Assembly: GCF_007991655.1 (NCBI RefSeq)
Contig: NZ_BJYT01000004.1
Location: 62,001 to 126,000 of the forward strand
Direction: 5' to 3'
Source: Segetibacter aerophilus
GTDB taxonomy: Bacteria; Bacteroidota; Bacteroidia; Chitinophagales; Chitinophagaceae
DNA length: 64,000 bases
In this document: piece after piece, positions 3,161-32,832 of the stretch
Numbering within the stretch: position 1 is the first letter of the stretch
Layout of the letters: each line of letters opens with the position of its first letter
Notes under the pieces: model-generated
Told to the model about the DNA's origin: nothing
The model's input: the letters and a program-made list of their open reading frames with translations, nothing else
Databases searched by the model: none
Translations under genes and position numbers: made by a program

Positions 3161-3190
3161 TCAATAAGATAACATAATTATCAATAAGAT
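3161..3190 (+). promoter_or_regulatory. Paired 10-bp repeat upstream of tape-measure operon
   Basis: TCAATAAGAT occurs at 3161-3170 and again at 3181-3190, a start-to-start distance of 20 bp (about two helical turns), with AACATAATTA between. Almost the same arrangement with the same spacing occurs at 15620-15649 before the head operon. The element is followed by AT-rich sequence and lies 75 bp before the tape-measure ATG. Most likely a binding site for a phage activator or repressor that controls late genes (inference). Confidence 0.5.
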
Positions 3191-3264
3191 TTTATATTTT
3201 TAATACTTCGAGGCGTTAAGAAAGCCTAACACAGAACACTCCCGCTATAATTTCCCGCTCGGAA

Positions 3265-5874
3265 ATGACACAAAACATACTGGTTCAGTTTGACAGTGAT
3301 ACTTCCGGTATTGCCGAAGGTGCGCAAGCTTTAACGGCCCTCAGTGCAAAGGAGAAAGAACTTGTCGCCACCTTTGAAAAGGGAGTTACCCAGACCAATA
3401 CAGCATTAAAAACATTTGCGGATAATGTAAAGAACGTCGACAAAGCATCTGTTGGCGCTTTCGGCACTAAAGGGCTGCAGGAGTTTCAGAAGGTGGTACA
3501 GACTGGCGCGAGTGAGATTAAAGTTCTTGATTCGGCGCTGAAACTGGCAAAGAAGAATCTCGACAATTTCAAGCCCGACAGCAAAGAATTTAAGGTACTA
3601 AATCAGGAGATCGCCAAGGGTGAAGCACTGATGAAGGCGCTAGGCGTTATCTCCCAAGGCACAAATAAAGAATTTAAAAACTTCCGTTCGGAGTTAAACG
3701 CCACCCGCTCTGCTATGCAGGAGTTGGAGGAGGCGGGGCTTGAAACGTCAGACGCTTTTCAGCAGTTAGCGGCCAGGGCCGGGCAGGTTCAGGATCAAAT
3801 AGGTGACACCCAGCAAAGGATTAAGGCCCTGTCATCCGATACGGCAGGCCTTGACGCGGTTGTTGAAGGTGTGCAAGGTGTAGCGGGCGCATTTCAATTT
3901 GCCTCCGGTGTTACCGCCTTATTTGGCAATGAGAACAAAGAAGTACAGGAAGCGCTTGTGAAGCTGAACGGCATCATGGCAATTACCCAGAGCTTACAGC
4001 AGGCACAAAACTTTTTAAGGGGTCAATCGATATTGAGGTTGAGGGCTGAGGCACTGGGTAACTCAATACTTGCAGCATCAACCAGGTTAACGGCCGCCGC
4101 TTACGGGGGGCTAGGTGTAGCGGTAACGGCAACATCAACAGCTTTCAAAGTACTGAGGGCAGCAATAATAACTACCGGTATCGGTGCGGTCGTTGTCGCG
4201 ATCGGTTTTCTAATTGAGAAGCTTTCCTCCCTTACCAGCACAACAAAGGATGCGAGCGAAGCGCAAAAGGCACTCAATGAAAATCTCGAGCAAGCAAACG
4301 ACGCGGCCCTGCAAGCCGGCCTGGCATTCTTAGGACGCGAAGAACAAATTGAAGAAGCAAGGGCAAGAAATAGGGGCGCGTCTGAAGCACAAATACTAGC
4401 TATAACTGAAAAGTACGCAAGGCTTCGAAATGAGCAACGCGAGAAGTATTTAAAGAACAGCGGCAACCAGTATAAGATTGAGGAGGATATCGCCAACGAG
4501 AATACCAAGTTAGAAGTTGACCGGCTTGACTTTTCCACCGACGCAAATAAAAAAGCGCACGATAAAAAGATTGCTGACGACAAAAAAGCTGCTTCAGTTC
4601 GAAAGGATCTTGCACAGCGAAACGCGACAGCCTTATTTGAAATTGAGCAAAGGAGATTAAAGCAGGAAGCCGACAGCTTCAAAGAGGGCTCGGACTCCCC
4701 CGGTCTTTTATTCAACATGCGTTTTGAGGCGTTGAACAACTTTGCAAAAAAGCAGGCCGAGCTACTGGATCTGCAAAGAAGGAACGAGCTAAGTAAGGAC
4801 GGGCTTACCTCTGTCGAAAGACTAAACATTGAAAAGAATTACACCGCCGAGCTGCTGAACTTGCAAAGTGACGTTAAGGCAAAGCGTCAGGGTATTGAGC
4901 AGAGTTACACTGAGTTTCTTCGTTCCAATAAGGAGGCGCAGGCCGAGGAAGATAAACGGCAGTTTGCGGCCTTGGAAGAAAACGCAAAAAGCGGTGGTGA
5001 CTTTTGGTTTAATGTTATGATTGAGCAGGCAGACGCTAGAATGCGGGCAGCCGATAAGGTGAGGGCAGATGACCTCGTAAAAGAAAAAGCCCATCAAGAG
5101 GCAAAGGCCAAAATAACGCAGGCGGCCTACCAGGTGGTTTCAAACATCGCTCAAATATTCGCCCAGTCATCACAGGCAAACGTTGACGAGGAAATACAGC
5201 AAATAACGCAGCTGAAGGACCATAAGATTATAACAGCCGAGGAAGCGGATAAAAGAATCAGAACCATCCGGAGGAAGGCCGCCGCTGACGAAAAGAAGAT
5301 GGCTATATTTTCCGCTTTACTTAGCCAGTCACAGGCGGTACTTGCCGTACTGGCTGATAAGACTATTCCCGCTATTATCAAACCCTTTGTAATTGCCGCC
5401 ACGATCGCCTCCAGCCTTTCGCAGTTGGCGCTTATTATCTCAAGACCTCTTCCGGCATTCAAAACGGGCGTTATCGGTTTGCAAGGTCCGGGAACCGAAA
5501 CCTCCGACAGCATTATTGCGAGGCTTTCTAAAAACGAGAGTGTTATCAAGGCATCAATGACGAGGAAGTGGAAGCCCGCGTTAACCGCCATAAACGAGAA
5601 CAGGTTTGAAAGCTACATTGCCAACATAAAAATGCCTGAAATGAACTACGGCAATTTTTCAATGGCGAGAGTGCCCAGCGGTTGGAACTCGGGCAACTCA
5701 GCGCCAGCACTTGATTATGAAAAGCTAGGGCAAAGCGTGGCAAGGCATGTGGGTAAGGTGTCAGACATAAGCCAGCTGGACGTAAACATTGATAAAACCG
5801 GGATCCATGTGATTGCCAAAGAGGGCAGCGACAGAACGGAGTACCTCAACAATAAATACAGATTTAAACTTTAA
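3265..5874 (+). CDS. Phage tail tape measure protein
   Basis: An 869-residue protein, strongly helical with long Gln/Glu/Lys/Ala-rich coiled coils. A hydrophobic stretch lies around residues 280-320 (AAIITTGIGAVVVAIGFLIE) and a second near 680-725. Near residue 742 the motif GPGTETSDSIIARLSKNES matches the G-x-G-T-x-T-S-D-S-I-x-A-R-L-S signature near the C terminus of many tape measure proteins. Tape measure proteins set tail length and help pass DNA through the cell envelope; at the usual rule of about 1.5 angstrom per residue this would be a tail of about 130 nm (inference). The ATG at 3265 follows a 270-bp gap that carries a putative control element. It leads an operon continuing to about 11.9 kb. 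Confidence 0.92.
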   Translation: MTQNILVQFDSDTSGIAEGAQALTALSAKEKELVATFEKGVTQTNTALKTFADNVKNVDKASVGAFGTKGLQEFQKVVQTGASEIKVLDSALKLAKKNLDNFKPDSKEFKVLNQEIAKGEALMKALGVISQGTNKEFKNFRSELNATRSAMQELEEAGLETSDAFQQLAARAGQVQDQIGDTQQRIKALSSDTAGLDAVVEGVQGVAGAFQFASGVTALFGNENKEVQEALVKLNGIMAITQSLQQAQNFLRGQSILRLRAEALGNSILAASTRLTAAAYGGLGVAVTATSTAFKVLRAAIITTGIGAVVVAIGFLIEKLSSLTSTTKDASEAQKALNENLEQANDAALQAGLAFLGREEQIEEARARNRGASEAQILAITEKYARLRNEQREKYLKNSGNQYKIEEDIANENTKLEVDRLDFSTDANKKAHDKKIADDKKAASVRKDLAQRNATALFEIEQRRLKQEADSFKEGSDSPGLLFNMRFEALNNFAKKQAELLDLQRRNELSKDGLTSVERLNIEKNYTAELLNLQSDVKAKRQGIEQSYTEFLRSNKEAQAEEDKRQFAALEENAKSGGDFWFNVMIEQADARMRAADKVRADDLVKEKAHQEAKAKITQAAYQVVSNIAQIFAQSSQANVDEEIQQITQLKDHKIITAEEADKRIRTIRRKAAADEKKMAIFSALLSQSQAVLAVLADKTIPAIIKPFVIAATIASSLSQLALIISRPLPAFKTGVIGLQGPGTETSDSIIARLSKNESVIKASMTRKWKPALTAINENRFESYIANIKMPEMNYGNFSMARVPSGWNSGNSAPALDYEKLGQSVARHVGKVSDISQLDVNIDKTGIHVIAKEGSDRTEYLNNKYRFKL

Positions 5875-9353: not shown

Positions 9354-11234
9354 ATGCCAACAATACTATCACCCGAGGAACTTAAGGCGCGTTTTTCAGG
9401 AACCAAAAAAAGCGTTGCTTGGAATGACAGCGTACTGCTATACCATAAGCTGAAGGTACACGCTGAGGGTGAAATGCCTATCCACCTGATTAAGGCAGCA
9501 AGGCCGAACGAAAGCGAAGCCGTGCGAACCTACAGGCAGAGTATTTACGAGGCAGAAACTCAAAACCCAATACAACGAGTTATTTCTGTGCTCGAGAAAA
9601 TAAGGCGGTCGCCCGATTGGATGATTCGCTTTCGGGATGACATACCCGCAATGATCACCAAAGAGGAAACGCTCGAAAGCTATATCGACGGCAAGTACCC
9701 CGTTTACAAAACGCTTGAGAACTGGTTATTTGAAGAAGCTTTAAAGGCAATTGCTTTGGACGCAAACGGCGTTTGTATTGTTATGCCGCAGGACCTGAAT
9801 GTAAACGGTATGGAGTACATAAAGCCCGTTGCAATGATTTTTAACGCCCCTCAAATAGTTGATTTCGTTACGGACGATTACGTTATTGTTAGAAGCGACG
9901 AATACTCCAGCAAGCTTAGCACGGACGTACAACAAACGAGGGCCCAAGCAATAGCCGGATTTACCGGCAACCCGTTTCTTGACGCCTCAAGCAGCAACCG
10001 GGTTGACCTTCCTTACTCTACTTCGGCCATGGTTTTTTATGTCGTCGACAACTACTCATATCAGAAATGGGAGGAAGTAGACGGCGGGATGTACATGCTT
10101 ACGCAGCAATACGTTCACGGGCTTAACTCACTGCCGGCCTTTCAACTGCCTGGCAAGTTTCATAAGCGTATGGGAAGCAGCGTTATTAAGACAACACCGC
10201 TTAACCCTATGGTACCGCACCTCAACAAGGCCGCAAGGGAAAGTAATGACCTGGATATTGGGGTTGTAAAACATTTGCACCCGCAGAAATGGAGGATTAA
10301 TAACATTCAGTGCGGAGAGTGCTCGGGTACCGGAAAGACTCTTGTTTCAGGATCTACAACGCAGTGCAAAGCTTGTAAGGGCGAGGGAGTTTCTAACGGC
10401 AGCTCCCCAGTTGATGAGATTATAATAAAGCCAGCGGCTATTGGTGAGCAGAATATCCCGGTGCCAGCGATGGGCTATGTTGAAATGAATGTTGAGATTA
10501 TTAAAATTCAGAACGAAAGGATCGAGGAGCATTTATACAAAGCGCTGGCAGCGGTCAACATGGATCACCTAAGCTCAACGCCGCTTAATATTTCCGGCAA
10601 GGGTAAAGAGCTTGACCGGGATGAGATGAACAGCGTTATAAGCTGGTTTGCTGAAAGCCTTGTTTTTGTTGCTGATCATGTTTGTAAATGGGTAAATGAA
10701 CTGAGGTACAAGGGCGTTGTTGCTGACGAAGTGAAGAGAAACGACATGCGGCCGATTATACCGGTCCCGGAGAAGTTCGATATCATCAATACAACCTTTC
10801 TTATTACCGAGTACAGTACGGCAAAAACAGCGGGGCTGAGCTCTACTATACTTGCCGAACTTGAAAAGGAAATTGCTCAGAAGAAGTTCTACTCTAATGA
10901 TGAGGTTTCCGGATTCGTTCAAACGGTGATGGATTGTAACCCGTTGCTGGGTTTAAGTATAGAGGAAAAGAGCCTGTTGTCAGGTAGCGGGCTGGTAACA
11001 AAGGAGGACGCTATTATGAGCGTTTACATCACTGACTTTGTTAACAGGGCGCTCGAGGAAGATAAAAACTTCCTGGATAAAAGTAAGGTTGATAAGCGTA
11101 AAATACTGCTGCAGTATGCAACAGAAAAAGCGGCCTTGCTAAATACAGCGGCCACCATGGCACAAGATATTTTTGAAGGTGGTGCACCCGCTAAAAAGGA
11201 GCCAGCCGATAAGGAAGAAGGAGTTGCCGCGTGA
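9354..11234 (+). CDS. Phage portal protein with zinc-ribbon insertion
   Basis: A 626-residue protein whose length, mixed alpha/beta core, long helical C-terminal region (roughly residues 385-620) and position just before a MuF-like minor head protein fit a portal protein, the dodecameric ring at the capsid vertex through which DNA is packaged. At residues 320-345 it carries two CxxCxGxG-type knuckles (C320-GE-C323-SGTG and C338-KA-C341-KGEG), the pattern of the DnaJ zinc domain. The C terminus is charged (PAKKEPADKEEG). Its stop overlaps the following GTG start. Portal is the best reading, from context and layout; the zinc site is directly visible. Confidence 0.7.
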   Translation: MPTILSPEELKARFSGTKKSVAWNDSVLLYHKLKVHAEGEMPIHLIKAARPNESEAVRTYRQSIYEAETQNPIQRVISVLEKIRRSPDWMIRFRDDIPAMITKEETLESYIDGKYPVYKTLENWLFEEALKAIALDANGVCIVMPQDLNVNGMEYIKPVAMIFNAPQIVDFVTDDYVIVRSDEYSSKLSTDVQQTRAQAIAGFTGNPFLDASSSNRVDLPYSTSAMVFYVVDNYSYQKWEEVDGGMYMLTQQYVHGLNSLPAFQLPGKFHKRMGSSVIKTTPLNPMVPHLNKAARESNDLDIGVVKHLHPQKWRINNIQCGECSGTGKTLVSGSTTQCKACKGEGVSNGSSPVDEIIIKPAAIGEQNIPVPAMGYVEMNVEIIKIQNERIEEHLYKALAAVNMDHLSSTPLNISGKGKELDRDEMNSVISWFAESLVFVADHVCKWVNELRYKGVVADEVKRNDMRPIIPVPEKFDIINTTFLITEYSTAKTAGLSSTILAELEKEIAQKKFYSNDEVSGFVQTVMDCNPLLGLSIEEKSLLSGSGLVTKEDAIMSVYITDFVNRALEEDKNFLDKSKVDKRKILLQYATEKAALLNTAATMAQDIFEGGAPAKKEPADKEEGVAA

Positions 11235-12119: not shown

Positions 12120-13049
12120 ATGAGCGACATTTCAACCATACTGAAAACGATTGAGGGGGCTGTAGACAAGCTTTCCTCCCATGCTTCCGAGAAGCAGGCC
12201 GGCGTATTTAAAAAGCTGGTTGGAATGCTTAAGGCGCTTGAAACAAGGCAAGACGCTATTCTTAACAATACGAAAAACCTTAAGCTTATCAACAACATTA
12301 AGGTTGAGCTGGAAAGGATAATTGTTGACGACCGGTATAAAAAAGAAGTAAAGGAATTCGTTAGTTCTTACAATGACGTTCAGGAGGTAAGTAATAAATA
12401 CTTCTCCAGCTTCGCGTCGAACTTTTCACCAAAAGCGGCACTAAACGCAATCAGGAAAACGGCGGTTGAAACTACTTTAAACGGCCTTACTGAAACAGGC
12501 ATACAAGCGGGAGTGACCGAGGGAATGCGAAAGATCTTGCTCAGCAATATGACTGCCGGCGGTTCTTACGCCGATATGACCGAGCAGCTGAGAAAGTATA
12601 TGCTTGCTGACGAAAATACTCCAGGCGCTTTAGAGCAGCACGTGAGAACGTTTTCAACTACAGCAATCAATCAGTACAGCGCGGAGTATAACAAGGCAGT
12701 AGCTGACGATCTAGGGCTTGAGTGGTACGTCTACACCGGGTCACTGCTTACAACCTCCCGGCCTTTTTGCATTAAGGCGGTCGAGAAAAAGTACATTCAC
12801 GTGAGCGAGTTTGAAACAATACTGGAGGGTGACTTTGGGGAGTTTGGTAAAGTAGGAATAAGTAAGTCAACAGGCCTGCCCGCTGGGCTAATGAAAGGAA
12901 CGGACAAAGGTAATTTAATCAGGAGGCGCGGTGGCTGGGCGTGCGGTCACCAAATGATTGCGGTTGCTGAGTTGATAGTTCCGAGAGCAAAAAAGGACTC
13001 GGTTTATTCGTCCGTCGATTATAAATTGTGGAAGATAAAGACGGCTTAA
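12120..13049 (+). CDS. MuF-like minor head / head morphogenesis protein
   Basis: A 309-residue protein. The first 110 residues are helical; the C-terminal part has the typical MuF-type core: helices with GITEGMRK-like segments, the TSRPFC motif (C217) and the closing RRGGWACGHQ motif (C275, H277), corresponding to the C-x-x-H of the phage head morphogenesis family (SPP1 gp7 / Mu gpF). These proteins sit in small copy number inside or at the portal vertex of the capsid. It follows the portal and the TIM-barrel gene after a 180-bp gap with possible control sites. Family recognition is good. Confidence 0.82.
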   Translation: MSDISTILKTIEGAVDKLSSHASEKQAGVFKKLVGMLKALETRQDAILNNTKNLKLINNIKVELERIIVDDRYKKEVKEFVSSYNDVQEVSNKYFSSFASNFSPKAALNAIRKTAVETTLNGLTETGIQAGVTEGMRKILLSNMTAGGSYADMTEQLRKYMLADENTPGALEQHVRTFSTTAINQYSAEYNKAVADDLGLEWYVYTGSLLTTSRPFCIKAVEKKYIHVSEFETILEGDFGEFGKVGISKSTGLPAGLMKGTDKGNLIRRRGGWACGHQMIAVAELIVPRAKKDSVYSSVDYKLWKIKTA

Positions 13050-15619: not shown

Positions 15620-15649
15620 TCAAATAGATAAAATAATTATCAATAGGAT
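15620..15649 (+). promoter_or_regulatory. Paired 10-bp repeat upstream of head operon
   Basis: TCAAATAGAT at 15620-15629 and TCAATAGGAT at 15640-15649, with AAAATAATTA between, have exactly the same 20-bp spacing as the pair at 3161-3190; the spacer differs by one base plus one offset (AACATAATTA there). It lies 26 bp before the ATG of the first head-operon gene (15676) and in the divergent region with the minus-strand gene at 15556. A shared phage control site is likely. Confidence 0.5.
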
Positions 15650-15675
15650 TATTTTTATAGCACAATCATTCAATT

Positions 15676-16077
15676 ATGTCAAAAGTTCTTCTCGTTACCG
15701 ACTACGCGGGCGGCCTTCATATAACTCCAGTTGCTAACAAAGACTTCTACCAAAGCCGCAACAACGCGGTAAAGGACAAGCAGTTTAAGTTTAAGGAAAT
15801 GGCGGAGGACGAAGCTTATAAGTTCGTTGAAAAGAACAGTGGTATTGACCCAGACTTTAAGGCTCCTAAGCAGATCAATAAAGTAATAGAGGATAAAGAC
15901 GCGGAGATAAGAGAGCTAAGGGCCGCTTTGGCCGCTGCAAAAAAGGATCCTGAGGTACAGGAGCAAAGGGCAATTTTGAACGAGCTAAGCACTACGCCTA
16001 CCTCAAATTCAGAGTACAGCCAAGCGGCTGCAGAACAAATTAAAGAAACTCCTGGCGCTAAGGCAAAAGGAAAATAA
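15676..16077 (+). CDS. Small phage head-operon protein, coiled coil
   Basis: A 133-residue protein beginning MSKVLLVTDYAGGLHITPV. The first half is mixed; the second half is an Ala/Glu/Lys helical region (EIRELRAALAAAKKDPEVQ) ending in a low-complexity tail. It opens the operon that encodes tRNA-Met, scaffold and capsid. Comparable short proteins precede the scaffold gene in other Bacteroidota prophages; function unknown. Confidence 0.55.
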   Translation: MSKVLLVTDYAGGLHITPVANKDFYQSRNNAVKDKQFKFKEMAEDEAYKFVEKNSGIDPDFKAPKQINKVIEDKDAEIRELRAALAAAKKDPEVQEQRAILNELSTTPTSNSEYSQAAAEQIKETPGAKAKGK

Positions 16078-16084
16078 ATAACAC

Positions 16085-16156
16085 CGTGGGGTAGAGCAGC
16101 GGTAGCTCGGAGGCCTCATAAGCCTCAGGTTGGCGGTTCGATCCCGCTCCCCGCAA
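16085..16156 (+). tRNA. Phage-encoded tRNA-Met(CAT), initiator-like
   Basis: A complete cloverleaf: acceptor CGTGGGG pairs with CCCCGCA except for a C1 x A72 mismatch, the hallmark of bacterial initiator tRNA; D-stem GAGC/GCTC; anticodon stem GAGGC/GCCTC with loop CTCATAA (anticodon CAT); T-loop TTCGATC; discriminator A. Pairs 29-31 with 39-41 are all G-C, though GGC/GCC rather than the usual GGG/CCC. No CCA is encoded. It lies 7 bases after one head-operon gene and 30 bases before the scaffold gene, so it must be processed from the head transcript. Confidence 0.9.
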
Positions 16157-16186
16157 CAAGTAACGTTTTAACTTAAATAGCTGTAT

Positions 16187-17098
16187 ATGCCAAAGTTCGG
16201 AGTATTATTAAATTCACTATCAGGAAAAGCCGGTATCAAACCAGACGATGAAACTTTAAAGAAGCTTCTTGCTTTTGTTGAGGTATCACAGTTTGAGCTA
16301 CCTGATGAATTTGCTAACGCTCTTGAACGTAACCTGCTAACACAGGAAAGCGCGGCAGCTAACCCGGACGTTCGTTCTAAGATTTTTGCTGAAGCCTTAA
16401 ACGGGGTAGACGCTGAGCTTGAAAGATCAGTTGGCGACTTTGAATTCGATGACAGCTTTAAGGGCGAATTGAAGGGCATTAAGAGCACGCACGAGAAGGT
16501 GCGCCGTATTACCGCCGGCTTGAAAGATCAGCTAAAGGCGGCCAAAGAAAAGGCCAACAAGACGGGTGACCCGAAGGACAAGGCGGAGGTTGATGTTTTA
16601 AAGAAGGAGATCGAGAACGCGAACACTCAAATGAATAATTTGAAGTTGATGCATCAGACCGAGATTGACAACCTTAAAACTGCGAACCTTAACGACAAAA
16701 AAGAGTTTACTTTAAAATCAAAATTAGCGGGCAAGCCTCTTCCAAAGAACGGGCTTCCACCTGAAATAAATATTCTTACGGCCAAGACACTGATTAGTCA
16801 GGAGATGGCAAAACAAGGTATCATTGTAACCTTTGACGAGGCCGGTAACCCGGTTCTTAAGCAAAGGAAAGACGGAGCAGATATCGACTACTTTGTAGAC
16901 AACAAGAAGATCGATTATGACAACTTCGTCGACGGGGTGCTTGCATCCAACAAATTCGTACAGATAAATGACCCCAACCCCGCACCTAATCCGGGACAAG
17001 GTAACAATCCCCCGCAGCCTCAACGTAGTTTCCAAAGCAATGCCGGTGTAGTGTCAGAAATTGACGGCCAGCTTCGCGAGTTAGGAATTACAGTTTAG
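16187..17098 (+). CDS. Capsid scaffolding protein
   Basis: A 303-residue acidic protein with a predicted central coiled coil (about residues 105-185: KDQLKAAKEKANKTGDPKDK, KKEIENANTQMNNLKL), followed by a small globular part and a Pro/Asn/Gln-rich linker (NPAPNPGQGNNPPQPQ). The C terminus is short and charged. This layout, immediately upstream of the capsid gene, is that of phage scaffold proteins (GP20-like), which direct capsid assembly and then leave or are digested. No protease motif is seen. Confidence 0.75.
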   Translation: MPKFGVLLNSLSGKAGIKPDDETLKKLLAFVEVSQFELPDEFANALERNLLTQESAAANPDVRSKIFAEALNGVDAELERSVGDFEFDDSFKGELKGIKSTHEKVRRITAGLKDQLKAAKEKANKTGDPKDKAEVDVLKKEIENANTQMNNLKLMHQTEIDNLKTANLNDKKEFTLKSKLAGKPLPKNGLPPEINILTAKTLISQEMAKQGIIVTFDEAGNPVLKQRKDGADIDYFVDNKKIDYDNFVDGVLASNKFVQINDPNPAPNPGQGNNPPQPQRSFQSNAGVVSEIDGQLRELGITV

Positions 17099-17131
17099 AG
17101 GCTACTCTCTCTAAATCTCCTTTCAACCATC

Positions 17132-18256
17132 ATGGCAAACGGATTTGTGCCAGGACTGCTTTTAGCATCAAAGCAAGTTTACACAGGCGCGGTAGATCCA
17201 TCTACCAAAATAACTCCATTGGGTTATTTAAGAATGCTATTGCGTAGAGGTATGATCACTAACGGGAACCCAAACCTTGTAAGTGCATCCATCGAAAACC
17301 AGGGTCACATTCGCAACGTGACAATTAAGTATAAGCAAAGAAGTACTGCCGGTAAAAGCGTAACTACAGACGATTGTAGCATACAGGCAACACCGGGCTA
17401 CCTCGAGGCGACAATCCCATCATTGCTTTTCAGGAAAAATGGAACCTTCATTTCATACGATGAAATCAGAAAGTATGAAAACGAAGCTTCGCAGACCGTT
17501 ATGGTTGGCAGACCAGCGCCACCTATGGGCATCATGCGCGAGCTGTGGGACCGTGTGATTGATAAAGGCCAGGGATTACTGCAGGACGTTGACAATGACT
17601 TGTTAACCGCTCAGGCCGCCGCTTTCGGTAAGAATGTAACTACCGGGCTTAATACTGCAAAGACAGTGAATTTTCCTTTGTCAACGGCTAGCAATCCTCT
17701 TGCCCAGGGTATGACGATGCTGATGACTGATATCATGGATAATGAAATCCCGCCTACTGATGTGGACATCGTGGGTAGCGGTTTGATCAACAACGTGTAC
17801 ATGCAAATGAATCTGAACACTCAGAACACGAAAGATCAAAATTACCCTAACATGTTCCCGAACCTTTACTGGGATTGGAACACGACCAGCAAGTGGGGCG
17901 CTAATCAGTTTGCAGTTTTCCAAAGAGACGCGGTTCAGTTCATCAATATCAATAAGTGGGGCGGCAATTTCGGAGGTGATAAGCTTTCTTCTTGGTTGTT
18001 TACCCTTAACCTTCCGTTGGCTGACAGCAGCAACAACAACGAGCTTTCAAGCTTCAAGTTTGACGCTCAGTTGAGGCATATTGATTGCCCTCAGGAAGTT
18101 GAGATTGACGGCGTACCAACGCAGGTTGACCGCGGTTGGGTGTTGGATTTAATGGCGAATTACAACCAGTTTAATATTCCTACTGACGCGTACAACGCTG
18201 CAGACCGTTTGACAGGCAACAACGGAACGCTTCGTTATACTGCTACCAACGCATAA
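17132..18256 (+). CDS. Major capsid protein
   Basis: A 374-residue protein starting MANGFVPGLLLASKQVYTG, directly after the scaffold gene. It has an extended N-terminal arm, a long central helix (EIRKYENEASQTVM and LWDRVIDKGQG) and many Asn/Gly/aromatic residues, consistent with an HK97-fold capsid protein. Position between scaffold and neck genes makes this the clear capsid candidate. The TAA stop shares its last A with the next ATG. No signal peptide, in contrast to several downstream virion genes. Confidence 0.8.
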   Translation: MANGFVPGLLLASKQVYTGAVDPSTKITPLGYLRMLLRRGMITNGNPNLVSASIENQGHIRNVTIKYKQRSTAGKSVTTDDCSIQATPGYLEATIPSLLFRKNGTFISYDEIRKYENEASQTVMVGRPAPPMGIMRELWDRVIDKGQGLLQDVDNDLLTAQAAAFGKNVTTGLNTAKTVNFPLSTASNPLAQGMTMLMTDIMDNEIPPTDVDIVGSGLINNVYMQMNLNTQNTKDQNYPNMFPNLYWDWNTTSKWGANQFAVFQRDAVQFININKWGGNFGGDKLSSWLFTLNLPLADSSNNNELSSFKFDAQLRHIDCPQEVEIDGVPTQVDRGWVLDLMANYNQFNIPTDAYNAADRLTGNNGTLRYTATNA

Positions 18257-31188: not shown

Positions 31189-31259
31189 AGGGATTTAGTG
31201 TAATGGTAGCACAGCAGTCTCCAAAACTGTTCGTATAGCTTCGAAACCTGTAACCCTTG
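31189..31259 (+). tRNA. tRNA-Trp(CCA), divergent T-arm
   Basis: Cloverleaf with anticodon loop CTCCAAA (anticodon CCA) on stem GCAGT/ACTGT, D-stem GTGT/GCAC and acceptor AGGGATT pairing with AACCCTT at most positions. A1-T72 and discriminator G are usual for bacterial tRNA-Trp. The T-stem ATAGC/CCTGT has C53 against C61, where a G-C pair is nearly universal, and the acceptor has an A-C mismatch. The gene may be decaying or unusually divergent. No CCA encoded. Confidence 0.65.
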
Positions 31260-31266
31260 CTAATTT

Positions 31267-31339
31267 GGTGCAGTAGCAAAGTTGGTCTATGCAGAGGACT
31301 GAAAATCCTTTGATGTTGGTTCGATCCCAACCTGTACCA
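31267..31339 (+). tRNA. tRNA-Phe(GAA)
   Basis: Acceptor GGTGCAG/CTGTACC (one G-T), D-arm, anticodon stem GAGGA/TCCTT with loop CTGAAAA (anticodon GAA), T-loop TTCGATC on a perfect GTTGG/CCAAC stem, and discriminator A as normal for Phe. It starts 8 bases after the Trp tRNA and ends 5 bases before the Cys tRNA, so all three are likely processed from one transcript. No CCA encoded. Confidence 0.88.
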
Positions 31340-31344
31340 CATAA

Positions 31345-31419
31345 GGGCAATTGGCAGAGTGGTCAAATGCAACGGTCCGCAAAACCGTCAAGTCGTAGGT
31401 TCAAATCCTACATTGCCCT
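31345..31419 (+). tRNA. tRNA-Cys(GCA)
   Basis: Perfect acceptor GGGCAAT/ATTGCCC, anticodon stem ACGGT/ACCGT with loop CCGCAAA (anticodon GCA), T-arm GTAGG-TTCAAAT-CCTAC, and discriminator T, which is the Cys identity base. It lies 7 bases before the convergent end of the integrase gene. It belongs to the phage (not the attachment tRNA), since it is within the element. No CCA encoded. Confidence 0.9.
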
Positions 31420-31426
31420 CAAATTT

Positions 31427-32662
31427 CTATGCGAACTTATTATCGATCCCCTTTAACCTTTCTAACTGGCGCTGCTTATTATTTACGTCATATATCTTCC
31501 TGACCATCGCAGTAGTAGTGTGTCCGTTGTGACTAGCCGCGTCACTTTCACTTAATAACTCTACAGTTTCCGTGGTGTTTGAGTGCTTTAGTGAATAGAA
31601 GTCGGCGGTAATGCCTAAGGGCTGTTTTACGTGCTGCAGCCAGCGCCTTGTTATTTGGTCGCGCCTGATTGGTTTTTTACCGCCTGGCTTAAGACGCCGG
31701 TGGAATATATACTCATCCGGCTTTGATTCATTTATTAGCTCTTCCCATAAAGGCAGCACCAGCGTTTTGATTGTCCGGTACTCCTCCTTGTATTGCTTAC
31801 CTTTTTTAACCAGCACTTTGAAGCGTTGTTTTTCAATATCCACATTGGCCGCTTTCACTGATAGTATTTCTGTTATCCGGGATCCGGAATGGAAGAAGAT
31901 GTGAAGGAAGCGCCAGAAGTTACGGTCCTTTTTCATGATCACGTCGTTCACCTCTTGCCGTTGAGCCGGGGTCAGTGTTTCCCTTATTTTTTTAACTGTC
32001 GTTTCCTTATCCATTTCCAGCGGGTAGTTGGCCTCGCACACTTCCATCTTTTTGAGGATCTTAAAGAGCATACCCAGGTGCGCCCGGTACTGGTTGAATG
32101 TGTTTGAGGTCCAGACTCCTTTTTTGGTTTTGCCTTTCCTTTTCGAAACGACAATAATACTTTTCTTTTTAAGCTCGCCGCACTTTTCTAGTAGGAGAGT
32201 AAGATGTTTTATTCTGATTGCTGAAATAGGGAGCTGCGAGTACTTCAAAGCCTCCGCCGCTTTCTTTATATAGGCCACGATGCTACGAAGGTTGTCCATT
32301 GTTTCTTTCCCTGCCTTTACTCTTTCAAGTGCAAAGTCAAGCGCTTTTGTGAACTCCGTCGTTGTGGAAATTTGGGCCTCTGGCTCCCGGTTGAAGAACT
32401 GCTCTGTTATTGGATTGTAGAGTTGGTCAACTATCAGTGACCTTTCATTCTCCAGTAGCGCTTGGGTTGCGTCCCGCTTTTCTTTTAACGTAGCGTAGGA
32501 GTTCATCCCCTTGACAACAATTTGTTTCACCTGCCCGGTGTTATCGTCGTAAAATCTAAACTTGATTTTCCAGATAAGGTTCACGTTCGCGCGAACCGTT
32601 TTCCAATTGGAGGGGAAGACCGTGAAGTTGCCAACACGGCAATTGTTTTCTAATCTCAGCAT
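31427..32662 (-). CDS. Tyrosine-type phage integrase
   Basis: A 411-residue tyrosine recombinase with an N-terminal arm-type region, a core-binding SAM-like region (about residues 100-205) and a C-terminal catalytic domain. Visible active-site residues: R262 (HSGSRITEIL), a basic loop about residues 286-292 for the Lys, H381 (NGHTT) and the nucleophile Y391 (KIYD). The usual HxxR of box II reads Y356-S-L-K359, so His is Tyr and Arg is Lys; this variant (YSLKH) is common in Bacteroidota phage integrases. It lies directly inside the tRNA-Arg attachment site. It catalyses prophage insertion and excision. Confidence 0.93.
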   Translation of the reverse strand: MLRLENNCRVGNFTVFPSNWKTVRANVNLIWKIKFRFYDDNTGQVKQIVVKGMNSYATLKEKRDATQALLENERSLIVDQLYNPITEQFFNREPEAQISTTTEFTKALDFALERVKAGKETMDNLRSIVAYIKKAAEALKYSQLPISAIRIKHLTLLLEKCGELKKKSIIVVSKRKGKTKKGVWTSNTFNQYRAHLGMLFKILKKMEVCEANYPLEMDKETTVKKIRETLTPAQRQEVNDVIMKKDRNFWRFLHIFFHSGSRITEILSVKAANVDIEKQRFKVLVKKGKQYKEEYRTIKTLVLPLWEELINESKPDEYIFHRRLKPGGKKPIRRDQITRRWLQHVKQPLGITADFYSLKHSNTTETVELLSESDAASHNGHTTTAMVRKIYDVNNKQRQLERLKGIDNKFA

Positions 32663-32688: not shown

Positions 32689-32758
32689 AGAAAAAATGCC
32701 GCTTGGTTAAGACTGGTAAAAAACGCTGAAAGCTTTGCTAGTATTGCCTTTCAGTTAG

Positions 32759-32800
32759 TGACCGCGTTAGGATTCAAACCTAAAACCTTCTGATCCGTAG
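32759..32800. other. Attachment site attR (approximate)
   Basis: The attR core is expected within the 3' half of tRNA-Arg, where the phage and host sequence are identical. Its exact edges cannot be set because attL lies outside the window. Placement is inferred from the integrase and the tRNA orientation. Confidence 0.55.
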
Positions 32801-32832
32801 TCAGATGCTCTATTCAGTTGAGCTACGCAGCC
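32759..32832 (-). tRNA. tRNA-Arg(ACG), prophage integration site
   Basis: On the minus strand: acceptor GGCTGCG pairs with CGCGGTC (seven pairs, two wobble), D-stem GCTC, anticodon loop CTACGGA (anticodon ACG) on stem TCTGA/TCAGA, T-loop TTTGAAT and discriminator A. The tRNA is intact, so the prophage must have restored the 3' end on insertion. Its 3' end faces the prophage and the integrase gene, which is the usual arrangement for tRNA-targeting phages. No CCA encoded. Confidence 0.92.

Follow-up and report, generated by a model that had tools for sequence, protein, structure and literature searches.

Why does a prophage of Segetibacter aerophilus carry a methionine tRNA gene among the genes for its head, and which kind of methionine tRNA does it encode? 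The window, meaning the whole stretch of 64,000 nucleotides that was analysed, holds this gene at 16085-16156, where the preliminary description had placed a tRNA with a CAT anticodon and read it as an initiator. The features of the head region are as follows.

3168-3202: another copy of the control block, in which the spacer is longer; it precedes the tape-measure gene (3265-5874, tail operon)
9354..11234, forward strand: portal protein gene (phrog_7376, E 2e-08)
12120..13049, forward strand: possible minor head gene (weak Pfam match to Phage_min_cap2, E 0.0088, 15.5 bits where the cut-off is 26.3; 37 viral loci hold relatives)
15627..15657, forward strand: promoter/operator-like control block of the head operon (GATAA...TTATC palindrome plus TATTTTTA; alignment of seven loci)
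15676..16077, forward strand: small head-operon gene, 133 aa, unknown function (aligned with seven homologues; no family match)
16085..16156, forward strand: initiator-like tRNA-Met(CAU), 3GC variant (C31:G39), CCA not encoded (ARAGORN, Rfam, host comparison, covariation)
16187..17098, forward strand: probable scaffold gene, 303 aa (labelled by position; homologues in relatives precede the capsid-position gene; no family match)
17132..18256, forward strand: probable major capsid gene, 374 aa (labelled by position; aligned with 20 relatives; no capsid family match)

Identity of the tRNA gene

ARAGORN called 16085-16157 of the forward strand as tRNA-Met(CAU), and 16085-16156 matched Rfam RF00005 at 56.6 bits, where the gathering score is 29, so that both programs agree with the original placement. 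In standard numbering, the acceptor stem is CGTGGGG/CCCCGCA with C1 opposite A72, the D stem is GAGC/GCTC, giving A11:U24, the anticodon stem GAGGC/GCCTC closes the loop CTCATAA, and the T stem is GGCGG/CCGCT. A73 is followed by CAA, hence the CCA end is not encoded. The gene lies between phage genes and its sequence is unlike that of the host copy, as a phage-encoded tRNA should be.

Most of the marks of a bacterial initiator are present. The CAU anticodon stands in a full cloverleaf, and the C1 × A72 mismatch on which the preliminary description had leaned most is indeed there; mismatch at 1:72 is a rule for bacterial initiator tRNAs (PMC7949028, in part), as is a purine 11 : pyrimidine 24 pair, here A11:U24 (PMC9976931 and PMC7949028, both in part). 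Among the formylation helpers A73, G2:C71, C3:G70 and G4:C69 given in portions of the same two papers, only 3:70 deviates, being U:G. The exception concerns the three G:C pairs of the anticodon stem (3GC; G29:C41, G30:C40 and G31:C39), which had been reported as present at 29-31 with 39-41: all three pairs are G-C or C-G, but the third is C31:G39, and the classic set is not strictly kept. The 30:40 and 29:41 pairs, those contacted by A1339 and G1338 of 16S rRNA in the head of the 30S subunit (PMC11497404, in part), are host-like, and only the third is flipped. Because the 3GC set was tested and found incomplete in this strict sense, the gene is classed as an initiator-like tRNA, 3GC variant.

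The tRNA was also compared with the host's own tRNAs, a check that had been proposed from the outset. The genome search yielded 41 matches among the best 150 of 347 candidates scored, and the comparison covered the 40 distinct genome tRNAs listed, including the three at the prophage end. Among these 40, the host initiator (L013) was closest (56/72 columns), followed by a tRNA-Phe (51/74) and an elongator-type Met tRNA, L019 (50/77), while the other CAU tRNA, L001, which we take to be the Ile-CAU tRNA, fell outside the five closest. The window tRNA and L013 share the CAU anticodon, the CTCATAA loop, C1 × A72, A11:U24, an identical D arm, A73 and the lack of an encoded CCA; they differ in that L013 has G31:C39, and with it the GGG/CCC set, and in that the window tRNA has U3:G70 and six stem pairs swapped for other pairs. 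An elongator tRNA-Met or a lysidine-modified tRNA-Ile(CAU), the case that would have undone the initiator reading, is favoured by the CAU anticodon only; C1 × A72, A11:U24 and the ranks of L019 and L001 behind the host initiator speak against it, and we reject it as extremely improbable.

Placement in the head operon and recurrence in related phages

The tRNA starts 7 nt past the small gene, whose stop ends at 16077, and the ATG of the probable scaffold gene (16187) follows 30 nt on. That it stands right before the scaffold and capsid genes holds with a reservation: the portal gene is recognised, but the two labels rest on gene order after it, with neither protein recognised by PHROGs or Pfam, and are therefore given as probable. 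Searches with the capsid-position protein against named phages, sequence searches of the PDB and single-protein viral scans were of no use, and the tape-measure gene was recognised weakly. The tRNA is, as first described, well apart from the tRNA cluster at the prophage end, where the following features lie.

31189-31420: Trp, Phe and Cys tRNAs, beside the integrase (ARAGORN)
31427-32662: integrase, adjoining tRNA-Arg(ACG) at 32758-32832

The tRNA-Arg gene is the likely integration site. The tRNA of the head operon was considered for that role and rejected, since the integrase adjoins tRNA-Arg, 15 kb away. In window positions 1-31000 and the 30 kb that precede the window, no left-end counterpart of the tRNA-Arg region turned up, matches reaching 11-15 bases only.

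Upstream of the small gene lies a block composed of a GATAA...TTATC-type palindrome and a TAnnTTT-type box, common to seven aligned loci; it precedes the small gene in the window, L053 and L219, the tRNA itself in L050, L222 and L226, and a tRNA relic in L213. One full match occurs in the window and none in 100 shuffles. Its 23-base core has two copies in the 5.89-Mb genome, at the head operon and at 3168, each before a structural operon. A loose form of the pattern was found in 6 of 14 loci (window, L212, L222, L226, L219 and L053) and was absent from the other eight (L213, L208, L215, L214, L218, L227, L230 and L262, the last a distant relative of L053); the strict form misses L212. The box is presumably a promoter, judging by the Bacteroidota -7 element, and perhaps one used late in the phage cycle. 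Sigma-70 and terminator scans gave nothing better than shuffles, and no terminator-like site was found on the forward strand from 15676 to 18256.

Relatives of the capsid-position and minor-head genes occur in viral contigs (8 and 37 loci, partly on the same contigs) and in some genomes. Across 48 loci, ARAGORN placed a tRNA-Met in the head zone of five contigs: the window, the L050/L051 pair, L222 and L226. The members of the pair, which appear again as L211/L212 and L233/L234, are viral contigs that show no difference in the 16.6 kb compared. The tRNA directly precedes the homologue of 15676-16077 in all four viral contigs, whereas in the window it directly follows that gene; in L050/L212, L222 and L226 it begins 10-11 nt past the box, and 14-15 nt separate its end from an ATG. 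ARAGORN called none in the genome loci. The initiator reading of the preliminary description has held as regards type, which the sequence supports well, and three related phages likewise have a tRNA of this type in that operon.

A scan for acceptor and T arms over 34 head zones, some on near-identical contigs, found four distinct full tRNAs, one relic and 29 zones with neither; the head-operon tRNA is therefore dispensable. The relic, at L213:8544-8584, retains the acceptor stem and T arm at the site of the relatives' full tRNA, with no D or anticodon arm, and may be either a remnant or a working minihelix. When the L213 zone was shuffled 500 times, preserving two-base blocks only, no fold of this kind arose whose linker was 8 or shorter; the folding energy of the relic is ordinary (z -1.44).

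Variation of the anticodon stem in phages and hosts

Covariation was assessed over five tRNAs, namely those of the window, the host (L013), L050, L222 and L226. Among the 100 stem cells 98% pair, and 9 of the 20 pairs have changed on both sides; neither value was reached in 500 shuffles. G30:C40 and the D stem are invariant, 29:41 is G:C in the window and host tRNAs and A:U in the other three, and 31:39 is variously C:G, G:C, U:A (twice) and a U-U mismatch (L050); L226 also has a mismatch at 28:42. Keeping both pairs gripped by the 30S head is thus not general, because L050, L222 and L226 have A29:U41. A tree built from 132 short tRNAs placed the window tRNA with L222 and L226 (support 0.94), and no host initiator was among the 25 leaves around it. 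By plain identity, the host initiator of another genome, L059, is nearly as close (0.83) as the best viral tRNA (0.84), and a grouping by descent drawn from about 73 columns is suggestive only.

Within the host family, Chitinophagaceae, 174 of 195 genomes carried a match to a control pattern that had the D arm and anticodon loop fixed and allowed any anticodon stem. Patterns requiring a change on both sides of a pair, by which one-sided and 30:40 changes would be missed in family and phylum alike, found 31:39 altered in 1 of 394 family genomes, the window tRNA itself, and 29:41 altered in two (G044 and G066). The G044 tRNA lies inside a phage structural region, preceded by a match to a Mu-like protease, by a major head protein and by an endolysin, and followed by DUF2586. 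That of G066 has genes of host type, for malic enzyme and thioredoxin, on one side and genes of phage type (a primase, a methylase and phrog_874) on the other; a prophage origin is likely here as well, though less plain than for G044 because of the host-type genes. Phylum-wide, the 29:41 change was found in none of 198 genomes, counting all genomes whether or not they carry the general pattern. The two host-family tRNAs with the altered 29:41 pair, which lie in or beside phage-type genes, have the following coordinates.

L267:4685-4758: initiator-like tRNA without G29:C41
L268:9793-9867: initiator-like tRNA without G29:C41

Initiator-like tRNAs borne by phages are a known and common kind, and the window tRNA is for this reason a variant of that kind: a similar pattern occurs in at least 120 viral stretches of IMG/VR. 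Among the 111 distinct tRNAs in the matches listed, which come from mixed host groups, 30:40 is G:C in 110 and 29:41 in 37, while 31:39 is G:C in 95 and C:G in nine; the full 3GC set is present in 32, and 84 (summed from the table) have no standard pair at 1:72. As the host groups are mixed, these figures describe tRNAs of viral contigs and not a clean contrast between phage and host. A29:U41 is normal in some alphaproteobacterial hosts, and prophage edges may have contributed host copies to the set, in which an integrase (phrog_95) was recognised in 6 of the 61 downstream neighbours among the matches listed. Both the mixture and the possible host copies weaken the broader proposal that 3GC is relaxed in phage initiator tRNAs relative to their hosts. 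Better-matched controls are the host-family genomes and those viral tRNAs that have a short D loop and lack CCA; 4 of the 23 such tRNAs among the matches listed keep 3GC.

The initiator-like tRNA was the only one on its fetched stretch in 76 of 123 loci (the 120 viral ones among the matches listed plus L205, L206 and L050), an upper bound because the fetched stretches are short. Neighbouring proteins of at least 100 aa and no more than 1.5 kb away were of mixed kinds; the scan covered 61 of the 63 on the downstream side and 52 of the 54 on the upstream side. When 20 proteins were scanned singly, a head or packaging family was matched in 8 of 16 loci, which had been picked for large neighbours; the solitary tRNAs with such a near neighbour are those of L095, L129, L130, L136, L155, L170, L184 and L193. 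Records of named phages matched the window tRNA in 32 cases and the host initiator in 257, a few of which look bacterial; the loop pattern CTCATAA alone was too common to be of use. Four named phages, picked for their small genomes, were looked at. In the record of phiLM21 (L269:4999-5075), a tRNA-Met is annotated on the strand opposite to the match, possibly an annotation slip.

The tRNA-Met genes of Aeromonas, Sinorhizobium and Vibrio phages resemble the window tRNA in having an initiator-like sequence on a phage, relaxed stems being frequent in viral contigs, and its C31:G39 is common to the nine viral cases above. It differs from them in standing alone between head-operon genes, downstream of a phage-specific block. 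What is unusual here is the placement inside a probable shell-gene block together with the breaking of a 3GC rule that the host's copy obeys; the three G:C pairs are highly conserved among initiator tRNAs in all domains (PMC7949028, in part). No description of a solitary initiator tRNA with an altered third pair inside a head operon was found in the open-access literature searched.

Possible roles of the tRNA

The fold, initiator marks, covariation, placement and recurrence in relatives can be read from the sequence; expression, processing, charging, initiation activity, timing and benefit we infer. On balance, we favour a functional phage tRNA of initiator type, co-transcribed with the head genes and probably supplying initiation during virion synthesis. 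The head genes and the tRNA would share one transcript from a phage promoter, from which host tRNA-processing enzymes would excise the tRNA, with the CCA end then added. Methionine would then be attached and formylated, and the tRNA would act at the ribosomal P site. Being made in step with the virion mRNAs, it would raise or secure the initiator supply during bulk synthesis of structural proteins. Outcompeting elongators, and so keeping them from the P site, requires a high level of initiator (PMC7949028, in part), and dependence on phage tRNAs is greater for late phage mRNAs (PMC11025619, in part).

A possible but doubtful rival is that the tRNA replaces a host initiator destroyed by a defence or toxin nuclease, its rewritten stems allowing it to escape. 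The anticodon stems of the four head-operon tRNAs are unlike the host's around a constant loop, and the three 3GC departures found in the 394 family genomes are those of the window tRNA, of G044 inside a phage structural region and of G066 next to genes of phage type; an altered stem leaves room to evade a stem-reading enzyme, although compensated drift would give the same picture. Phage tRNAs have been proposed to resist anticodon nucleases (PMC10264068, in part). Like those, the window tRNA is a phage counterpart of a tRNA essential to the host, but it differs in that the changes are in its stems; with the host's own anticodon loop it does not fit the loop-mutation pattern of that paper, and evasion of a loop-cutting nuclease is hard to see. 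Where VapC targets the anticodon itself, moreover, phages generally avoid tRNA-fMet (PMC10264068, in part).

It is rather unlikely that the fold acts chiefly as a signal for cleavage by RNase P and Z, setting the 5' end of the head mRNA with decoding secondary. The tight spacing between box, tRNA and ATG in L050/L212, L222 and L226 would suit such a signal, as would the paired acceptor and T arms kept in L213 after loss of the other two and unmatched in its shuffles. Yet the L213 fold, ordinary in energy, may be decay, most scanned relatives have no tRNA, the window tRNA is not at the operon start, and the retention of initiator marks would be left unexplained. Very unlikely, in turn, is a functionless passenger decaying since an old capture: patchy presence, the L213 relic, a position one gene off from that in relatives and a similarity to another genome's host initiator about equal to that to viral tRNAs are in its favour, but stem covariation and the initiator marks argue against it, and grouping with L222 and L226 suggests long maintenance.

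Beyond the favoured reading of an initiator-type tRNA serving virion synthesis, we suggest only tentatively that some phages tie a private, 3GC-relaxed initiator tRNA to the virion operon, with strict constraint on G30:C40 only and a partly separate initiation pool. The initiator-like tRNAs of viral contigs resemble a natural mutant collection, which could show which anticodon-stem pairs matter, and the head-operon placement suggests a testable link between virion synthesis and initiator supply. If such a private tRNA is real, these phages would draw their virion mRNAs and the tRNA that starts their translation from one transcript.
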